Source of the DNA: an uncultured Oscillospiraceae bacterium
GTDB lineage: Bacteria; Bacillota; Clostridia; Oscillospirales; Oscillospiraceae
Assembly (NCBI GenBank): GCA_944385095.1
Contig: CALWVS010000015.1
Location: 1-48,861, forward strand
Direction: 5' to 3'
Length of the DNA stretch: 48,861 nucleotides
Both the position numbers and the translations under genes were made by a program. A model generated the notes under the pieces. It had not been told where the DNA came from and made no database searches. It was given only the letters and a program-made list of their open reading frames with translations. Of this stretch, positions 187 through 41,595 are shown piece by piece. Position 1 is the stretch's first letter. Each line of letters opens with the position of its first letter.

Positions 187-1404
187 TTAATTTTGTGGTT
201 TTTTGTTGTAACGCTCAAAGCGTTTGATGTTGCCCAGATGGTTTTTGATGATTCTCAGTTTTCGTTTCCAGGAAGCATCATTCACATATTCCAGAGAGTG
301 TGAGTCAGCTCCAGCCTGAATGAGGGCTTTCATCTGGCTGTGATACTCTTTGGGGATAAAGGAAAATGCCACCTGTCTGGGTACCATGCGCCACAGAGAG
401 CGAGTTTGACAGATTTCAAATTCCAAATCCTGTTTTTCAATTCGGTCCTGTACCAAGGTTCTGGCAATGTTCTGTCCCGCTCCAGTCACATAGTAATTAC
501 TGCGTCCCTGACGACAGTTAATTTCAAATGCCTTATACTTGCCATCTCTCTTGTCGTATTTGATGTCAAAATTAGAAAATCCAGTAAAATGCAAATCTTC
601 CAACATGGCTTTGATGCGCAGACACAGTTCTTCATCATACTCAGTCATGATGACAGCATGGTTGCCAATTCCATGGGGGGAGTGTTCTTCTAGCAAAACA
701 TGCCCAAGACACATCCGCTTTACCAGACCATTGCGGTCGGAATAGTTGGTCAGTACACGCATATAAGTATCATCGCCTGGGATGAACTCCTGTAAAATCA
801 TGTGGTCGGGATAGCCTGCATCATAGACCTGATCCAAAGCACGCAATAGTTCTTCCCATGTCTGGCACACATACACTTTGGCAAGTTCATGGACACCAGT
901 TGCCCAATATGCCACACCATCCGCAGGTTTTGCAATGTAAGGGGGACCAAAAGGCAGGGTAAAGTCATGTCCCATAGATTTTTCGTAGACAAAAGTGGCA
1001 GGGTGGTCAATGCCATATTGGTCACACAGGGCATAAAATTTTTCCTTGTTGATGAGAGCATCCAAAAGAGTACCACCGATGTAGGGGGCAATGATATTTT
1101 TAGGTAGTTGGTCTTTACAGTGGGCTGCTAACTGGACATAGCTGTCCCCACAGCCCAGCAGTAAAATGGTTTTGTCTGGAAATTCTTCTGATACAGCCAG
1201 TGCATTTTGGCAAAATACCTGGGCACTTTCATTATTTTCACACACACGGTAATCTATAATCTCACTGCCATAACAAGGAAAAGAAGGATACTTGCCATAG
1301 GCGATACTTTTGACACCGTATGCCTCATGAAATGCTCTGGCTACACTGTAGACATTGATATCACCGCCAAACAGCAGAGGTTGAAAGGGTAAGTCGTTTG
1401 TCAT
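187..1404 (-). CDS. ATP-grasp carboxylate-amine ligase, D-aspartate ligase (Asl)-like
   Basis: A 405-residue cytoplasmic ATP-grasp protein. The N-terminus (GGDINVYSVARAFHEAYG), the central GCGDSYV and FIPGDDTYMRVL segments, and the late FEINCRQGRSNYYVT block resemble the Enterococcus faecium D-aspartate ligase Asl(fm) family. That family ligates D-Asp to the lysine side chain of peptidoglycan precursors using ATP. The start has an AAAGGAG site 7 bases upstream. It is the second gene of a two-gene operon, 17 bases after a racemase-like gene. A D-amino-acid substrate is therefore a reasonable inference, but the actual acceptor is unknown: many clostridia have diaminopimelate rather than lysine in the wall. 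Other possibilities are peptide or natural-product ligases of the same fold. Family assignment is firm; substrate is not. Confidence 0.8.
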   Translation of the reverse strand: MTNDLPFQPLLFGGDINVYSVARAFHEAYGVKSIAYGKYPSFPCYGSEIIDYRVCENNESAQVFCQNALAVSEEFPDKTILLLGCGDSYVQLAAHCKDQLPKNIIAPYIGGTLLDALINKEKFYALCDQYGIDHPATFVYEKSMGHDFTLPFGPPYIAKPADGVAYWATGVHELAKVYVCQTWEELLRALDQVYDAGYPDHMILQEFIPGDDTYMRVLTNYSDRNGLVKRMCLGHVLLEEHSPHGIGNHAVIMTEYDEELCLRIKAMLEDLHFTGFSNFDIKYDKRDGKYKAFEINCRQGRSNYYVTGAGQNIARTLVQDRIEKQDLEFEICQTRSLWRMVPRQVAFSFIPKEYHSQMKALIQAGADSHSLEYVNDASWKRKLRIIKNHLGNIKRFERYNKKPQN

Positions 1405-1421: not shown

Positions 1422-2489
1422 TTATCGGTATTCAATCTGGAACCCTCTGGCGTAGAGGGGTTCTAAATCAAATGTGGCAAGATCGCCAGCAGAACATTTA
1501 ACATTGGTCACATCTAAAATGGTTTCTGTGGCACCAATGGAGCCAATCATTCGGACGGGTTGCCCATTGATACGCAGAGAGCAGTTCTTTTTTCTTTGCC
1601 AGCGTTTAAGCAGAGACCAAAATCCAGTCTCTCGAGGGCGTTCCACGCCAAGCCCGTTCTGGTAGCCCACAGGCAGAACAGCCACACGAGTGGGACGTTT
1701 GAGGGTGACAGAATGATAGGCACCAATACTATGCCCCTTAGGCAGCCAGCGCACTTCAGAAACAGGGGCTTCTCCATACCCCACTGTTTGTAGCCCATCC
1801 CCACTGGTACGTCGGCAGCGACCCAGAATGACAGAACCTGCCCGTACTGCGTCCATACGGGCAGAATCGAAGTGCATTAAGGCATAGGAACCCGCTGTAT
1901 GAACAATGCCAGTTTCAAAACCGGCGGCATGAATGGAGTCCAGAATTTGATGAAATTGCTCTAGCTGCCCTTTGATTTCATGGGCTTTGGGAGAAATTGT
2001 GTGTAATTGGGTATAAATGCCGGAAAGAGCCACATTGGGCAGAGAACGATAGGCAAGCAAAATTTTTTCTGGCTCACTGACCAGAAATCCACCAAACCCC
2101 ATACCAGTGTCCACCTGTATATGTGCCTCTGCCACTGTGGCACGGTTTTCTGCCACGGCATTCAGGGCAAGTCCAGTATCCACAGAAGAAATGGTACATA
2201 CAATATTCAGGTCCACAAGCTGTTCCAATTCTTCTCGATCTATGGTGGAACGAAGCATGAGAATTTCCTCATCTATGAAACCGGAATCTCGCAACGTTTT
2301 TGCCTCTTCCACAGAGTTGACAGCAAAACGGCTGGCACCCTCGTCCCGAATGAGACGGGCAAGGGCGGCAATGCCAATTCCACCTCCATCCCCAGTCAAT
2401 ACGCCATACAGGGCAGCTCCCGCGGCCCGTTCTTTGATAATTGACATATTGTTGCGAATGGCGGATGTATCTACAATGAGTTTGCGCAT
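1422..2489 (-). CDS. Alanine racemase-fold protein lacking the catalytic Lys and Tyr (pseudo-racemase)
   Basis: A 355-residue protein that aligns along its length with fold-type III alanine racemases: N-terminal barrel, the VDTGMGFGGF segment near 127-135, MDAVRAGSVILG near 212-223, and a C-terminal domain with VLPVGYQNG near 271-279. The PLP-lysine motif (usually VVKADAYGHG) reads GVLTGDGGGIG at about 29-39, so Thr32 sits where the Schiff-base lysine should be. The second catalytic residue, the Tyr of the SYG motif, is Ala257 in SIGAYHS, although a Tyr follows at 258. The AN-S phosphate-binding stretch is AGS (about 199-201). By family knowledge it should not racemise alanine. It may bind a ligand or partner, perhaps the ATP-grasp enzyme encoded next to it. 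There is no frameshift; the frame is intact. First gene of the operon, with its own promoter. Confidence 0.8.
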   Translation of the reverse strand: MRKLIVDTSAIRNNMSIIKERAAGAALYGVLTGDGGGIGIAALARLIRDEGASRFAVNSVEEAKTLRDSGFIDEEILMLRSTIDREELEQLVDLNIVCTISSVDTGLALNAVAENRATVAEAHIQVDTGMGFGGFLVSEPEKILLAYRSLPNVALSGIYTQLHTISPKAHEIKGQLEQFHQILDSIHAAGFETGIVHTAGSYALMHFDSARMDAVRAGSVILGRCRRTSGDGLQTVGYGEAPVSEVRWLPKGHSIGAYHSVTLKRPTRVAVLPVGYQNGLGVERPRETGFWSLLKRWQRKKNCSLRINGQPVRMIGSIGATETILDVTNVKCSAGDLATFDLEPLYARGFQIEYR

Positions 2490-2720: not shown

Positions 2721-4136
2721 ATGAAACGAACAACAACCACCATTTCTCAGACAGACATTGCGCGTCAGATGGCATACTGTCAGGAAATTGCAGCTATAAG
2801 CCAAACAAAGCCTGAGCAGCCACTTGCTTTTGTAGATACCTATGGATGTCAACAGAATGAGGCGGATTCTGAAAAAATTCGTGGCTATCTGCGTGCAATG
2901 GGATATGGCTTTACCCAGGATGAGGAACAGGCACAGATCATTGTCATCAACACCTGTGCCATTCGAGAACATGCCGAGCAGCGTGTGTTAGGGAATTTGG
3001 GTGCACTGGTGCATGTGAAACGGCGTCATCCAGAGCAGATTATCTGCCTGTGTGGCTGTATGGCGCAGGAGAGCCATATTGCAGAGAAAGTGAAACAGTC
3101 TTTTCGACATGTAGATTTGGTATTTGGTCCCCATGTTCTTTGGAAATTCCCTGAATTTATCCACACACTGTTGACCAGCCGTGGACGAATTTTTCAAATT
3201 CCAGATGAGGCAGGTTCCATTGCAGAGGGAATTCCTGTGGTGCGTCAGGACAATGTAAAGGCGTGGGTATCCATTATGTATGGGTGCAATAATTTTTGTT
3301 CTTATTGCATTGTTCCCTATGTGCGGGGGCGGGAGCGTTCCCGTGAGCCACAGGATATCTTAAAAGAAGTGGAAACTTTGGTGTCACAGGGCTATAAGGA
3401 TATTACATTGTTGGGTCAAAATGTAAACTCCTATGGAAAAGATTTGGAAACCCCTATGGACTTTTCTGATTTGCTGGAAAAAATCAATGCAATTCAGGGA
3501 GATTTCTTAATCCGCTTTATGACATCCCATCCCAAAGATGCCACACCAAAGCTGTTTGAAACCATGGCACACTGTGAAAAGGTGGCTCCAGTGCTGCACC
3601 TCCCCTTCCAGGCAGGAAATGACCGGATTTTGAAGGAGATGAACCGCAAGCATACCAGAGCGGAATATCTGGAGAAGGTGCGGCAATTGAAAGCGTTAAT
3701 TCCTGATATTGTGATGACCTCCGATGTGATTGTAGGATTTCCCGGGGAGACCACAGAGGAATTTGAGGACACCCTGAAAGTGCTGGAGGAAGTGCGATTT
3801 GATGCCCTCTTTACGTTTATTTACTCCCCAAGAGTGGGAACACCAGCAGCCAGTATGCCAGACCCTATGTCAAGGGAAGAAAAACTTGCCAACTTTAACC
3901 GTTTGCTTGCCCTACAGGACACCATTTCAGAGGAGAAACATGCAGCCTATATTGGAAAGACCATTCGTTGTCTGGTGGATGGGGAAAGTGGAGACATGCG
4001 ATACCCACTGGCAGCACGCACACCCGGCAACCGGTTGGTGCGTGTATCTGGACCCAAAGAGTTGATTGGTCAGTTTGTATCTGTGACCATTACAGATGCC
4101 AACAAGTGGTCACTGTGTGGAGAGCTGGCAGAGTAA
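2721..4136 (+). CDS. miaB: tRNA-2-methylthio-N6-dimethylallyladenosine synthase MiaB
   Basis: A 471-residue radical-SAM methylthiotransferase that adds the 2-methylthio group to i6A37 of tRNAs reading UNN codons. The N-terminal MTTase domain has its three cluster-binding cysteines (C43 in YGCQQNE, C79 in NTCA, C113 in CGCMAQ). The radical-SAM CX3CX2C motif is C189/C193/C196 (YGCNNFCSYC), and a C-terminal TRAM-like region ends the protein. The N-terminus is about 30 residues longer than the shortest MiaB proteins, which is usual in clostridia. GGAGG lies 5 bases from the ATG. It heads an operon with mutS 18 bases downstream. MiaA, which makes its substrate i6A, is encoded later in the same operon, so both enzymes of the ms2i6A pathway are together. 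Confidence 0.96.
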   Translation: MKRTTTTISQTDIARQMAYCQEIAAISQTKPEQPLAFVDTYGCQQNEADSEKIRGYLRAMGYGFTQDEEQAQIIVINTCAIREHAEQRVLGNLGALVHVKRRHPEQIICLCGCMAQESHIAEKVKQSFRHVDLVFGPHVLWKFPEFIHTLLTSRGRIFQIPDEAGSIAEGIPVVRQDNVKAWVSIMYGCNNFCSYCIVPYVRGRERSREPQDILKEVETLVSQGYKDITLLGQNVNSYGKDLETPMDFSDLLEKINAIQGDFLIRFMTSHPKDATPKLFETMAHCEKVAPVLHLPFQAGNDRILKEMNRKHTRAEYLEKVRQLKALIPDIVMTSDVIVGFPGETTEEFEDTLKVLEEVRFDALFTFIYSPRVGTPAASMPDPMSREEKLANFNRLLALQDTISEEKHAAYIGKTIRCLVDGESGDMRYPLAARTPGNRLVRVSGPKELIGQFVSVTITDANKWSLCGELAE

Positions 4137-11883: not shown

Positions 11884-12612
11884 ATGTCGATTCAAGCACA
11901 TGTAGAACAGGTCAAACAGGAAATCGCAAAGGCAGCCATAACAGCAGGGCGAAAACCAGAAGAAATTACCTTGTGTGCGGCTACAAAGGTGCAAAGCCAT
12001 GAAACCATTCGGGCAGCCATTCAGGCTGGTATCACAGTATGTGGAGAAAATCGAGTGCAAGAGTTGGTGAGCCACTTGGAAGTGGATGCCTATGCAGGTG
12101 CACAGGTGCACTTCATTGGTCATTTACAGACCAACAAAGTAAAGCAAGTGGTGGGAAAGGTTGCATTGATTCAATCTGTGGATTCAGAGAGATTATTACA
12201 GGCAATTGAGACACAGGCGGAAAAGCTGGGAATTGTACAGGATATTCTATTGGAAGTCAATATTGCCGGAGAGGAGAGCAAGGGAGGGTGTACCATGGAT
12301 GAGGCAAGAAGTTTAGCTGCCCTCTGTGGAACACTGAATCATGTACAGCTCAGAGGGCTGATGGCAATCCCGCCTATTTCCAGTGAGCCTGGGGCAAATC
12401 GTCCATTTTTTTCAGCCATGCGACAGCTTTTTGTTGACATAAAGGGTGCTTTGGGAGATAATCAATTCAGAATAGATTGTCTGTCTATGGGCATGAGCGG
12501 AGATTATCGGGATGCAATCCAAGAAGGTGCAACATTGGTACGGATTGGGACGGCATTGTTTGGGGCACGTCCCCCGTTATCAAAGGCTGACTGTGGAATG
12601 TTGGAAAAATGA
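11884..12612 (+). CDS. yggS: YggS/YlmE-family PLP homeostasis protein
   Basis: A 242-residue single-domain fold-type III PLP protein. The PLP-binding lysine is K35 in LCAATKVQ. The GENRVQE, HFIGHLQTNK, SVDSERL and SMGMSGDYRDAI blocks are those of the YggS/PLPBP family, which binds PLP but lacks enzymatic racemase activity and helps balance vitamin B6 and amino-acid pools. AGGGGGAAG lies upstream of the ATG. It is followed by sepF, as in the B. subtilis ylmE-ylmF order. Unlike the racemase-like protein at the window start, it has kept its lysine. Confidence 0.93.
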   Translation: MSIQAHVEQVKQEIAKAAITAGRKPEEITLCAATKVQSHETIRAAIQAGITVCGENRVQELVSHLEVDAYAGAQVHFIGHLQTNKVKQVVGKVALIQSVDSERLLQAIETQAEKLGIVQDILLEVNIAGEESKGGCTMDEARSLAALCGTLNHVQLRGLMAIPPISSEPGANRPFFSAMRQLFVDIKGALGDNQFRIDCLSMGMSGDYRDAIQEGATLVRIGTALFGARPPLSKADCGMLEK

Positions 12613-15174: not shown

Positions 15175-15434
15175 CATATAGAGTCACATGCAAAGAAAAG
15201 GACAAGTATCTGTTCTGTATACTGCAAAGAGAGCCGTCGGCAGGTGAAAGACGGAGAGTGCAGACAGAGAAACATCACCTTGGAGCAGACAGGTTGAACG
15301 AGTAGTAGATTTGTCCGGTTGCCTCCGTTATTGGGCAGTTCTTGAGGGGTTGGAGTTGTGACTTCAACAATAAGAGTGGTACCGCAGGGGTTTTGTGCCT
15401 TTGTCTCTTGCTGGGGACAAAGGCTTTTTCTTTT
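15175..15434 (+). promoter_or_regulatory. T-box riboswitch, isoleucine specifier (AUC)
   Basis: A leader that senses uncharged tRNA(Ile) and lets transcription continue when the tRNA is uncharged. The T-box core AAGAGTGGTACCGCAGG is at 15372-15388. The terminator stem GCCTTTGTC/GACAAAGGC is at 15397-15405 and 15416-15424, with a U-rich tail to 15434. Stem I spans about 15225-15290, and the likely specifier codon is ATC at 15274-15276, inside AACATCACCTTGGAGC. The specifier matches the downstream ileS. The first gene in its transcript is a small zinc-ribbon protein, with ileS second. Confidence 0.93.
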
Positions 15435-41312: not shown

Positions 41313-41471
41313 GTTTTGAGGAGAGAAAAAGGAATTATTTTCTTTTTCTTCCTAATGTCGACAAAGAGACAAAGATTGCTTTTGAAAATTCAGTTTTTTC
41401 GTAGGAATAGCTAAAACAAATCCTTGCATGTTTTCTATGAATATGCTACACTGAACCCACTTTGAAAAGCA

Positions 41472-41595
41472 AAGTAGAATTCTGTGCGTCCAGTGAGAAA
41501 GTGAAACTCAAAAGTGCCTGCCGAATGGGGAGTTGTCGGTGGGACGAATAGCGAAAAAAGCTAACGATACAGAATTTGCATCCCATTGCTACATA
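41472..41595 (+). promoter_or_regulatory. Tetrahydrofolate (THF) riboswitch
   Basis: The sequence matches the THF riboswitch layout: GTAGAATTCTGTGCG as 5' P1/P2, the core block GAATGGGGAGTTGTC at 41523-41537, then GACGAATAGCGAAAAAAGC, and the conserved TTGCATCCC at 41577-41584 next to the closing strand GCTAC. These line up with the folT riboswitch of streptococci as I recall it. The loop AGTGAGAAAGTGAAACTC is longer than usual. It stands upstream of a folT-like gene, the expected context. Confidence 0.85.

Follow-up and report, generated by a model that had tools for sequence, protein, structure and literature searches.

A lysine-less alanine-racemase paralog, probably a pseudoenzyme, at the head of a putative D-aspartate ligase module in Oscillospiraceae

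We have analysed a 48,861-nucleotide stretch of DNA from an uncultured Oscillospiraceae bacterium (GenBank assembly GCA_944385095.1, contig CALWVS010000015.1; hereafter the window), and in particular an alanine-racemase paralog encoded on its minus strand at positions 1422–2489, immediately ahead of an ATP-grasp ligase gene. As judged from its sequence and from those of its relatives, the protein is very probably a pseudoenzyme, in which both the lysine that holds pyridoxal 5'-phosphate (PLP) and the catalytic tyrosine of alanine racemases have been replaced. From the combination of catalytic loss, full length and purifying selection we infer a second, non-catalytic job. We see about equal weight for and against the proposal that the protein has been retained for a non-catalytic role, as a partner or regulator, in which its partners in this genus would be proteins of a D-aspartate branch. 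L- and G-numbers below are our handles for loci and genomes, respectively.

The open reading frame at 1422–2489 starts with ATG, has no internal stop and specifies 355 amino acids. Pfam detects both Ala_racemase_N (PF01168, 1.1e-42) and Ala_racemase_C (PF00842, 1.8e-10), and the two-domain Alr fold is also seen in structure alignments and in the predicted structure, which has a predicted local distance difference test (pLDDT) score of 91. The protein scores 138.4 bits with the NCBIfam alr equivalog model (TIGR00492), under the cut-off of 168, and the canonical alanine racemase of the same genome (L001) scores 368. In alignments to solved racemases and to L001, Thr32 (codon 2394–2396, minus strand) occupies the PLP-lysine position, Ala257 (codon 1719–1721, minus strand) occupies the catalytic-tyrosine position, and the H.ANS motif of racemases has become HTAGS. 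An earlier reading made from the DNA letters alone (the sequence-only reading) had pointed to these same replacements, including AGS for AN-S, and the alignments agree with it. In what we take to be the numbering of the Geobacillus alanine racemase, Tyr43, Arg136, His166 and Asn203 are likewise replaced, by Gly36, Phe132, Gln161 and Gly200, respectively; Arg219, Ser204 and Tyr284 are retained as Arg216, Ser201 and Tyr276. The sequence-only reading had made its claim depend on there being no second lysine at the PLP site, and none appears in the aligned PLP-lysine stretch. Lys142 and Lys251 were considered as substitute PLP lysines and set aside; they are conserved in the paralog, yet by alignment also in several intact relatives.

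We compared the mean conservation of 14 pocket positions, presumably those that line the active site of the Geobacillus enzyme, with that of 5000 random position sets. In 31 intact sequences the pocket mean lay above all 5000 random sets. It was matched by 1022 of the 5000 in 62 sequences of the window type (99 thinned at 93% identity, minus L127 and L128), and by 1905 in 21 sequences of a second Lys-less type, the K-to-S group. As far as alignment tells, the pocket constraint typical of an active enzyme is gone in the Lys-less groups, and the protein overall is kept. Six of the 14 pocket positions nevertheless show fixation of 95% or more in the window group (Arg216, Gly218, Ser201, Gln161, Gly200 and Tyr276), as do Cys98, Cys225, Arg227 and Asp231, which stay below 25% in intact relatives. 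Ligand binding is therefore possible, and the six pocket positions are what favors a small-molecule sensor, in which the barrel mouth, free of PLP, would take up an amino acid or phosphate and the protein would signal to the wall pathway. We regard such a sensor as improbable, since conservation of the pocket as a whole does not exceed that of random positions, and the two Lys-less groups have different pockets (Asp200 or Gly200; Arg, Cys or Leu at 216). Still less credible is an active enzyme of new chemistry, one that would hold PLP with no Schiff base or rely on the cysteines Cys98 and Cys225 for catalysis. The four newly fixed residues would suit it, but most of the window group has other residues at the equivalents of Lys39, Tyr43, Tyr265, Arg136 and His166, and the new residues common to both Lys-less groups are confined to four sites, mostly conservative. 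Binding of a different cofactor, which the sequence-only reading had suggested, is not indicated.

The replaced state is not peculiar to one genome. The paralog was found, at full length and 66–77% identity, in 31 of 36 other genomes of the same genus, and over the resulting 32 loci (own included) the PLP-lysine position is Thr in 25, Ser in 4, Ala in 3 and Lys in none. A scan of named genomes gave at least 51 loci, of which 49 were kept (L132 and L133, at 27% and 22% identity, were left out); the record titles include Flavonifractor, Pseudoflavonifractor, Lawsonibacter, Colidextribacter, Galloscillospira and uncultured Oscillospiraceae. Here and below, counts for named loci are among the matches listed. 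None of the 49, two of which are cut by contig ends, has Lys at the PLP position, and with 0 of 32 in the genus this means that the lysine loss is not a sequencing error. Tyr at position 257 was seen in 1 of 32 same-genus loci, in 5 of 49 named loci and in 3 of 39 Lys-less loci of the family sample described below; loss of the catalytic tyrosine is less uniform than that of the lysine, and the order of the losses is not simple.

The gene is also well maintained. In 47 of the 49 named loci it encodes 354–356 amino acids without a stop, the other two ending at contig edges, and mean column identity over 30 sequences is 85%; conservation is strong in the stretch 123–163. Between the window and L083, the closest pair, the ratio of nonsynonymous to synonymous change (dN/dS, or omega) is 0.027 for the paralog and 0.024 for miaB; two more close pairs gave 0.12 and 0.19 for the paralog and 0.09 and 0.17 for miaB. 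These pairs indicate that the gene is under purifying selection. They were used in place of omega over all pairs (medians: paralog 0.39, ligase 0.25, miaB 0.46), which we discarded as unusable because, given how far the proteins have diverged, dS appears too low. That the gene is decaying toward loss, which might explain why we did not find the paralog in G024, G029, G031, G032 and G033 of the same genus, is in our judgement refuted by the full-length loci, the low close-pair omega and the high column identity; the absence from G031 may in any case be false, since a MurE fragment of the operon type starts at a contig edge there. Taken with the clade-wide loss of lysine and the relaxed pocket, these sequence comparisons bear out the sequence-only reading where it called the protein non-enzymatic.

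We extended the survey to 120 genomes drawn evenly from the GTDB family, with a homologue threshold of E 1e-40. At this threshold 59 genomes had a subfamily homologue, and 41 of the 120 carried a Lys-less copy: 20 of the window type (Lys replaced by Thr, Ser or Ala; Met occurs once among the named loci) and 21 of the K-to-S group (18 Ser, 2 Thr and 1 Asn, with Asp200 in 20). Twenty genomes had the intact type, and one more (G096, locus L153) had Lys without Tyr. Intact and Lys-less copies occurred together in only three genomes (G072, G121 and G134). In a quick tree of 88 proteins, the 55 Lys-less rows and the Lys-bearing L153 fell on one side of a branch with Shimodaira-Hasegawa approximate likelihood-ratio (SH-aLRT) support of 99. 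In a wider quick tree of 100 rows, with other families added, an open fork joins a small Tyr-less group and both Lys-less groups; a constraint to a single Lys-less clade was not rejected by the approximately unbiased (AU) test (p 0.78), the constrained tree scoring above the free one. Among the best 30 of 71 order-level matches, to which the order-level results here and below refer, 23 loci came from other families, and all 23 kept the lysine. Four of the 23, from one family (L208, L209, L210 and L233; wider stretches L234–L237), lack Tyr and Asn and stand at the old site without the FemX gene discussed next; they are perhaps an intermediate state in the decay. The phenomenon is thus wider than the earlier single-gene observation, being a conserved state across the genus and a large clade of the family, whose members have neither the PLP lysine nor most of the other residues of the active site.

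Catalytic residues and a neighbouring FemX gene were found to go together. The gene before intact members is identified as FemX by Pfam FemAB (1.7e-73), and members with both Lys and Tyr lie directly behind it in 24 of 30 loci with room for a neighbour; L188 was scored as lacking FemX by our counting rule, though by coordinates FemX abuts it. In the order sample, 19 of 19 intact members lie behind FemX (two of these come from genomes that an earlier count already includes), and none of the 4 Tyr-less loci does so. For degenerate members the count was 0 of 82 loci with room, the named and sampled loci overlapping in genomes. Over whole genomes of the family sample, FemX was present in 16 of 20 intact-type genomes (a number that includes the second copy of G121; an earlier count without it was 16 of 19), in 0 of 20 of the window type and in 1 of 21 of the K-to-S group. 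Within the genus it was found in 1 of 36 genomes, G035 (L201, L202), which also has a Lys-less copy; this draft is 72% complete, so that contamination is possible. The Tyr-less family has kept the old neighbourhood minus FemX: a decarboxylase gene and then, in stretches long enough to show them, darA, holB and ricT. Where FemX is missing from the site, Tyr and Asn have almost always gone too, and in the window's family so has Lys. The FemX-racemase pair itself was seen across many families of the order (L065–L070, L072, L074–L076, L207, L211–L215 and others), often followed by the decarboxylase, darA, holB or ricT.

The ligase gene (187–1404, minus strand, 405 amino acids) is the first gene after the paralog and the last before the contig end, and the two are separated by 17 bases (1405–1421), so that the intact gene 17 bases ahead of an ATP-grasp reading frame is as the sequence-only reading had given it. 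Searches with the ligase sequence found nothing in Pfam at 0.01 or among PDB sequences at 0.1. Over its full length it shares 35% and 34% identity with carboxylate-amine ligases from two lactobacilli, the former from L. curvatus; the activity of these two ligases is itself assigned through annotation and context. The L. curvatus gene comes after a gene annotated as an amino acid racemase and the L. fermentum gene does not. In relatives such as L083, the gene order is dead racemase, ligase, Asp/Glu-family racemase and MurE-like ligase; in our genome, where the window's contig ends behind the ligase, the latter two genes are found at the end of contig C23. These resemblances and neighbours lend support to the description of the ligase as D-aspartate-ligase-like, resembling the Asl type. 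The Asp/Glu-family racemase of the module scores 218 bits with TIGR00035 (cut-off 93), and the MurE-like ligase scores 274 bits with TIGR01085 (cut-off 257). Of 11 MurE proteins from the module, 5 have EEDSG, 1 has DNPG, and in 5 no such pattern was found; DNPR, which we take to be the meso-diaminopimelate signature of MurE, is present in six other MurE proteins from genomes with and without the ligase. The MurE-like protein at L083:9155–11311 has EEDSG for DNPR and a C-terminal extension of ~220 residues with a weak match to an amino-acid N-acetyltransferase, and the ligase-less L195, L198 and L199 have a DNPR MurE paralog instead. In L077 and L078, which belong to two other families, genes for the ligase and for the Asp/Glu-family racemase stand beside an asparagine-synthase-type amidotransferase gene, a neighbourhood that would be expected for amidation of D-aspartate. 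The ligase of G026 (L007/L060) is in two frames, possibly through a frameshift or assembly error. Addition of D-aspartate appears to be the likeliest function of the module.

How closely the dead racemase is tied to this module was judged from adjacency and from co-occurrence. A search for the gene pair in other genomes, as the sequence-only reading had proposed, found the ligase adjoining the dead racemase in 28 of 45 named loci with room, and L085 adds one. The cassette follows the dead racemase behind two different upstream contexts, mutS-miaB or murJ-amidohydrolase-PNP. In the family sample, the ligase was present in 16 of 20 window-type genomes, as opposed to 13 of 100 other genomes. It was unlinked (on another contig or far away) in 11 of those 16, and linkage to the racemase recurs in G086, G089, G096 and G101. 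None of 19 intact-type genomes had the ligase, a count that predates inclusion of the second, intact copy of G121. Within the genus, our own genome counted, 27 genomes had both genes, 5 the dead racemase only, 5 neither, and none the ligase only, although the score of G031 may reflect a contig artefact. A functional tie to the D-aspartate module is plausible from these patterns, and no stronger than that, because the Lys-less protein also exists without the ligase.

Our interpretation is that the paralog would most likely bind a protein partner in peptidoglycan precursor synthesis, as prozymes and the antizyme inhibitor do. The best candidates in the genus would be three enzymes that together may place D-aspartate on stem peptides (the Asl-like ligase of the same operon, the Asp/Glu-family racemase and the MurE-like ligase), and the dead racemase would scaffold or tune this branch. 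That the partner in this genus belongs to the D-aspartate branch we propose tentatively. More speculative is a history in which the intact ancestor served a FemX-type peptidyl transferase, the chemistry was shed once FemX was lost, and in the genus and its kin the protein became a prozyme-like regulatory subunit of an ATP-grasp D-aspartate branch; we consider it unlikely as a whole.

A number of observations weigh against this interpretation. With respect to FemX, the intact racemases L071, L073, L190 and L194 have no adjacent FemX gene and that of L175 is 2.7 kb away; L153 has Lys without Tyr, some Lys-less members retain Tyr, and the correlation of FemX with catalysis rests on few evolutionary events. 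The fixed pocket residues described above leave room for a ligand. With respect to the module, its Asp/Glu-family racemase also passes the cysteate racemase cut-off (202 against 190 bits), so that its substrate may be cysteate. The ligase is absent from all 21 K-to-S genomes, it is present in 12 of 61 family genomes without any subfamily member, and the co-occurrence counts ignore kinship. In the same genus, G002, G005, G007, G008 and G035 have the dead racemase without the ligase. Among 36 Lys-less family loci with room, mutL stands behind the gene in 21 and dtd in 10, and dtd does so in 10 of 45 named loci with room. Several of these points would suit an old gene beside miaB and mutS that has a job of its own, unrelated to the ligase, with the D-aspartate cassette having landed behind it in some lineages: in many genera Lys-less members are neighbours of miaB and are followed by mutL, dtd or other genes, five genomes of the genus have the paralog without the ligase, and in our genome dtd is on another contig, so that neighbours change. 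This explanation we nevertheless think somewhat doubtful, since the cassette remains behind the gene in two upstream contexts and the linkage has recurred in four genomes of the family sample, and in 11 of the 16 window-type genomes with a ligase it is present though unlinked. The sequence-only suggestion of a partner or sensor for the ligase is borne out only in part: the co-occurrence, even without linkage, speaks for it, and the ligase-less genomes of the genus, the K-to-S group and the 12 genomes with a ligase and no subfamily member speak against it.

As to the surroundings, the paralog gene diverges from a miaB-type gene (2721–4136, plus strand; radical SAM, UPF0004 and TRAM), and a promoter of some kind must therefore be located between them. 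The gene had been called promoter-driven, a description that our scan did not support: a sigma-70 search of positions 1–2800 gave no minus-strand site upstream. At the Rfam gathering threshold, no riboswitch or leader was found near the paralog gene in the window or in L083, L089, L096, L105, L108, L122, L163 and L177. Elsewhere in the window, Rfam matched a T-box leader (15184–15411) and a tetrahydrofolate (THF) riboswitch (41468–41590), and the gene at 11884–12612 encodes a single-domain Ala_racemase_N relative that we assigned by eye to YggS. In other genera, miaB with mutS and mutL is a common flank of Lys-less members, and in Flavonifractor-type genomes (L140, L143–L146, L122 and others) the D-aminoacyl-tRNA deacylase gene dtd directly follows the dead racemase. 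Partnership with dtd, a frequent neighbour, was considered and rejected, the dtd of our own genome being on contig C1, away from the paralog. Neighbouring genes were named through Pfam (miaB-type, mutS, mutL, miaA, dtd, darA, holB, ricT, PNP, amidohydrolase) or by eye (hemZ, murJ, S-adenosylhomocysteine deaminase).

Term searches of the open-access literature, as far as its texts were accessible, turned up no description of a dead alanine-racemase paralog and no paper combining alanine racemase, FemX, Clostridia and operon; in the accessible part of PMC6522883 the one "pseudoenzyme" is PDX1.2, in a reference. The lost chemistry, together with a position at the head of putative D-aspartate wall genes, makes the protein probably a helper or regulator and not an enzyme. 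With a Lys-less copy in 41 of 120 sampled family genomes, an intact sister group and a FemX correlate, a non-chemical role of the racemase scaffold becomes testable. The label "alanine racemase" can mislead in such gut genomes, which affects metabolic models and D-amino-acid predictions.

Among known systems, Alr (TIGR00492, PF01168/PF00842) and the serine racemase VanTg share the whole fold and both domains with the paralog, at 17–26% identity in the structure alignments listed. Unlike them, the paralog has neither the PLP lysine nor the catalytic tyrosine, most of its PLP contacts are altered, and it falls below the alr cut-off. YggS/PLPBP belongs to the same barrel family and binds PLP without being an enzyme; it keeps the PLP lysine and has no C-terminal domain. 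It and the paralog are alike in having an Ala_racemase_N barrel without a racemase role. In Lactococcus lactis, according to the available part of PMC4155827, racD is in the same operon as the aspartate ligase gene. The arrangement here resembles this Asl-RacD module of lactic acid bacteria in that an ATP-grasp ligase, 35% identical to that of L. curvatus, stands beside an Asp/Glu-type racemase; it differs in that a MurE-like ligase and a dead racemase join the module, and D-aspartate is the putative substrate. The antizyme inhibitor has as its paralog ornithine decarboxylase, which belongs to fold type III of the PLP enzymes. Trypanosomatid prozymes and the antizyme inhibitor are, in the accessible text of PMC3663545, inactive paralogs that modulate a partner protein by binding to it, and the paralog is like them in being dead yet kept under selection. 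It is unlike them in being bacterial, in having an intact subfamily member beside the Lys-less copy in only 3 of 41 genomes, and in that its partner is putative.
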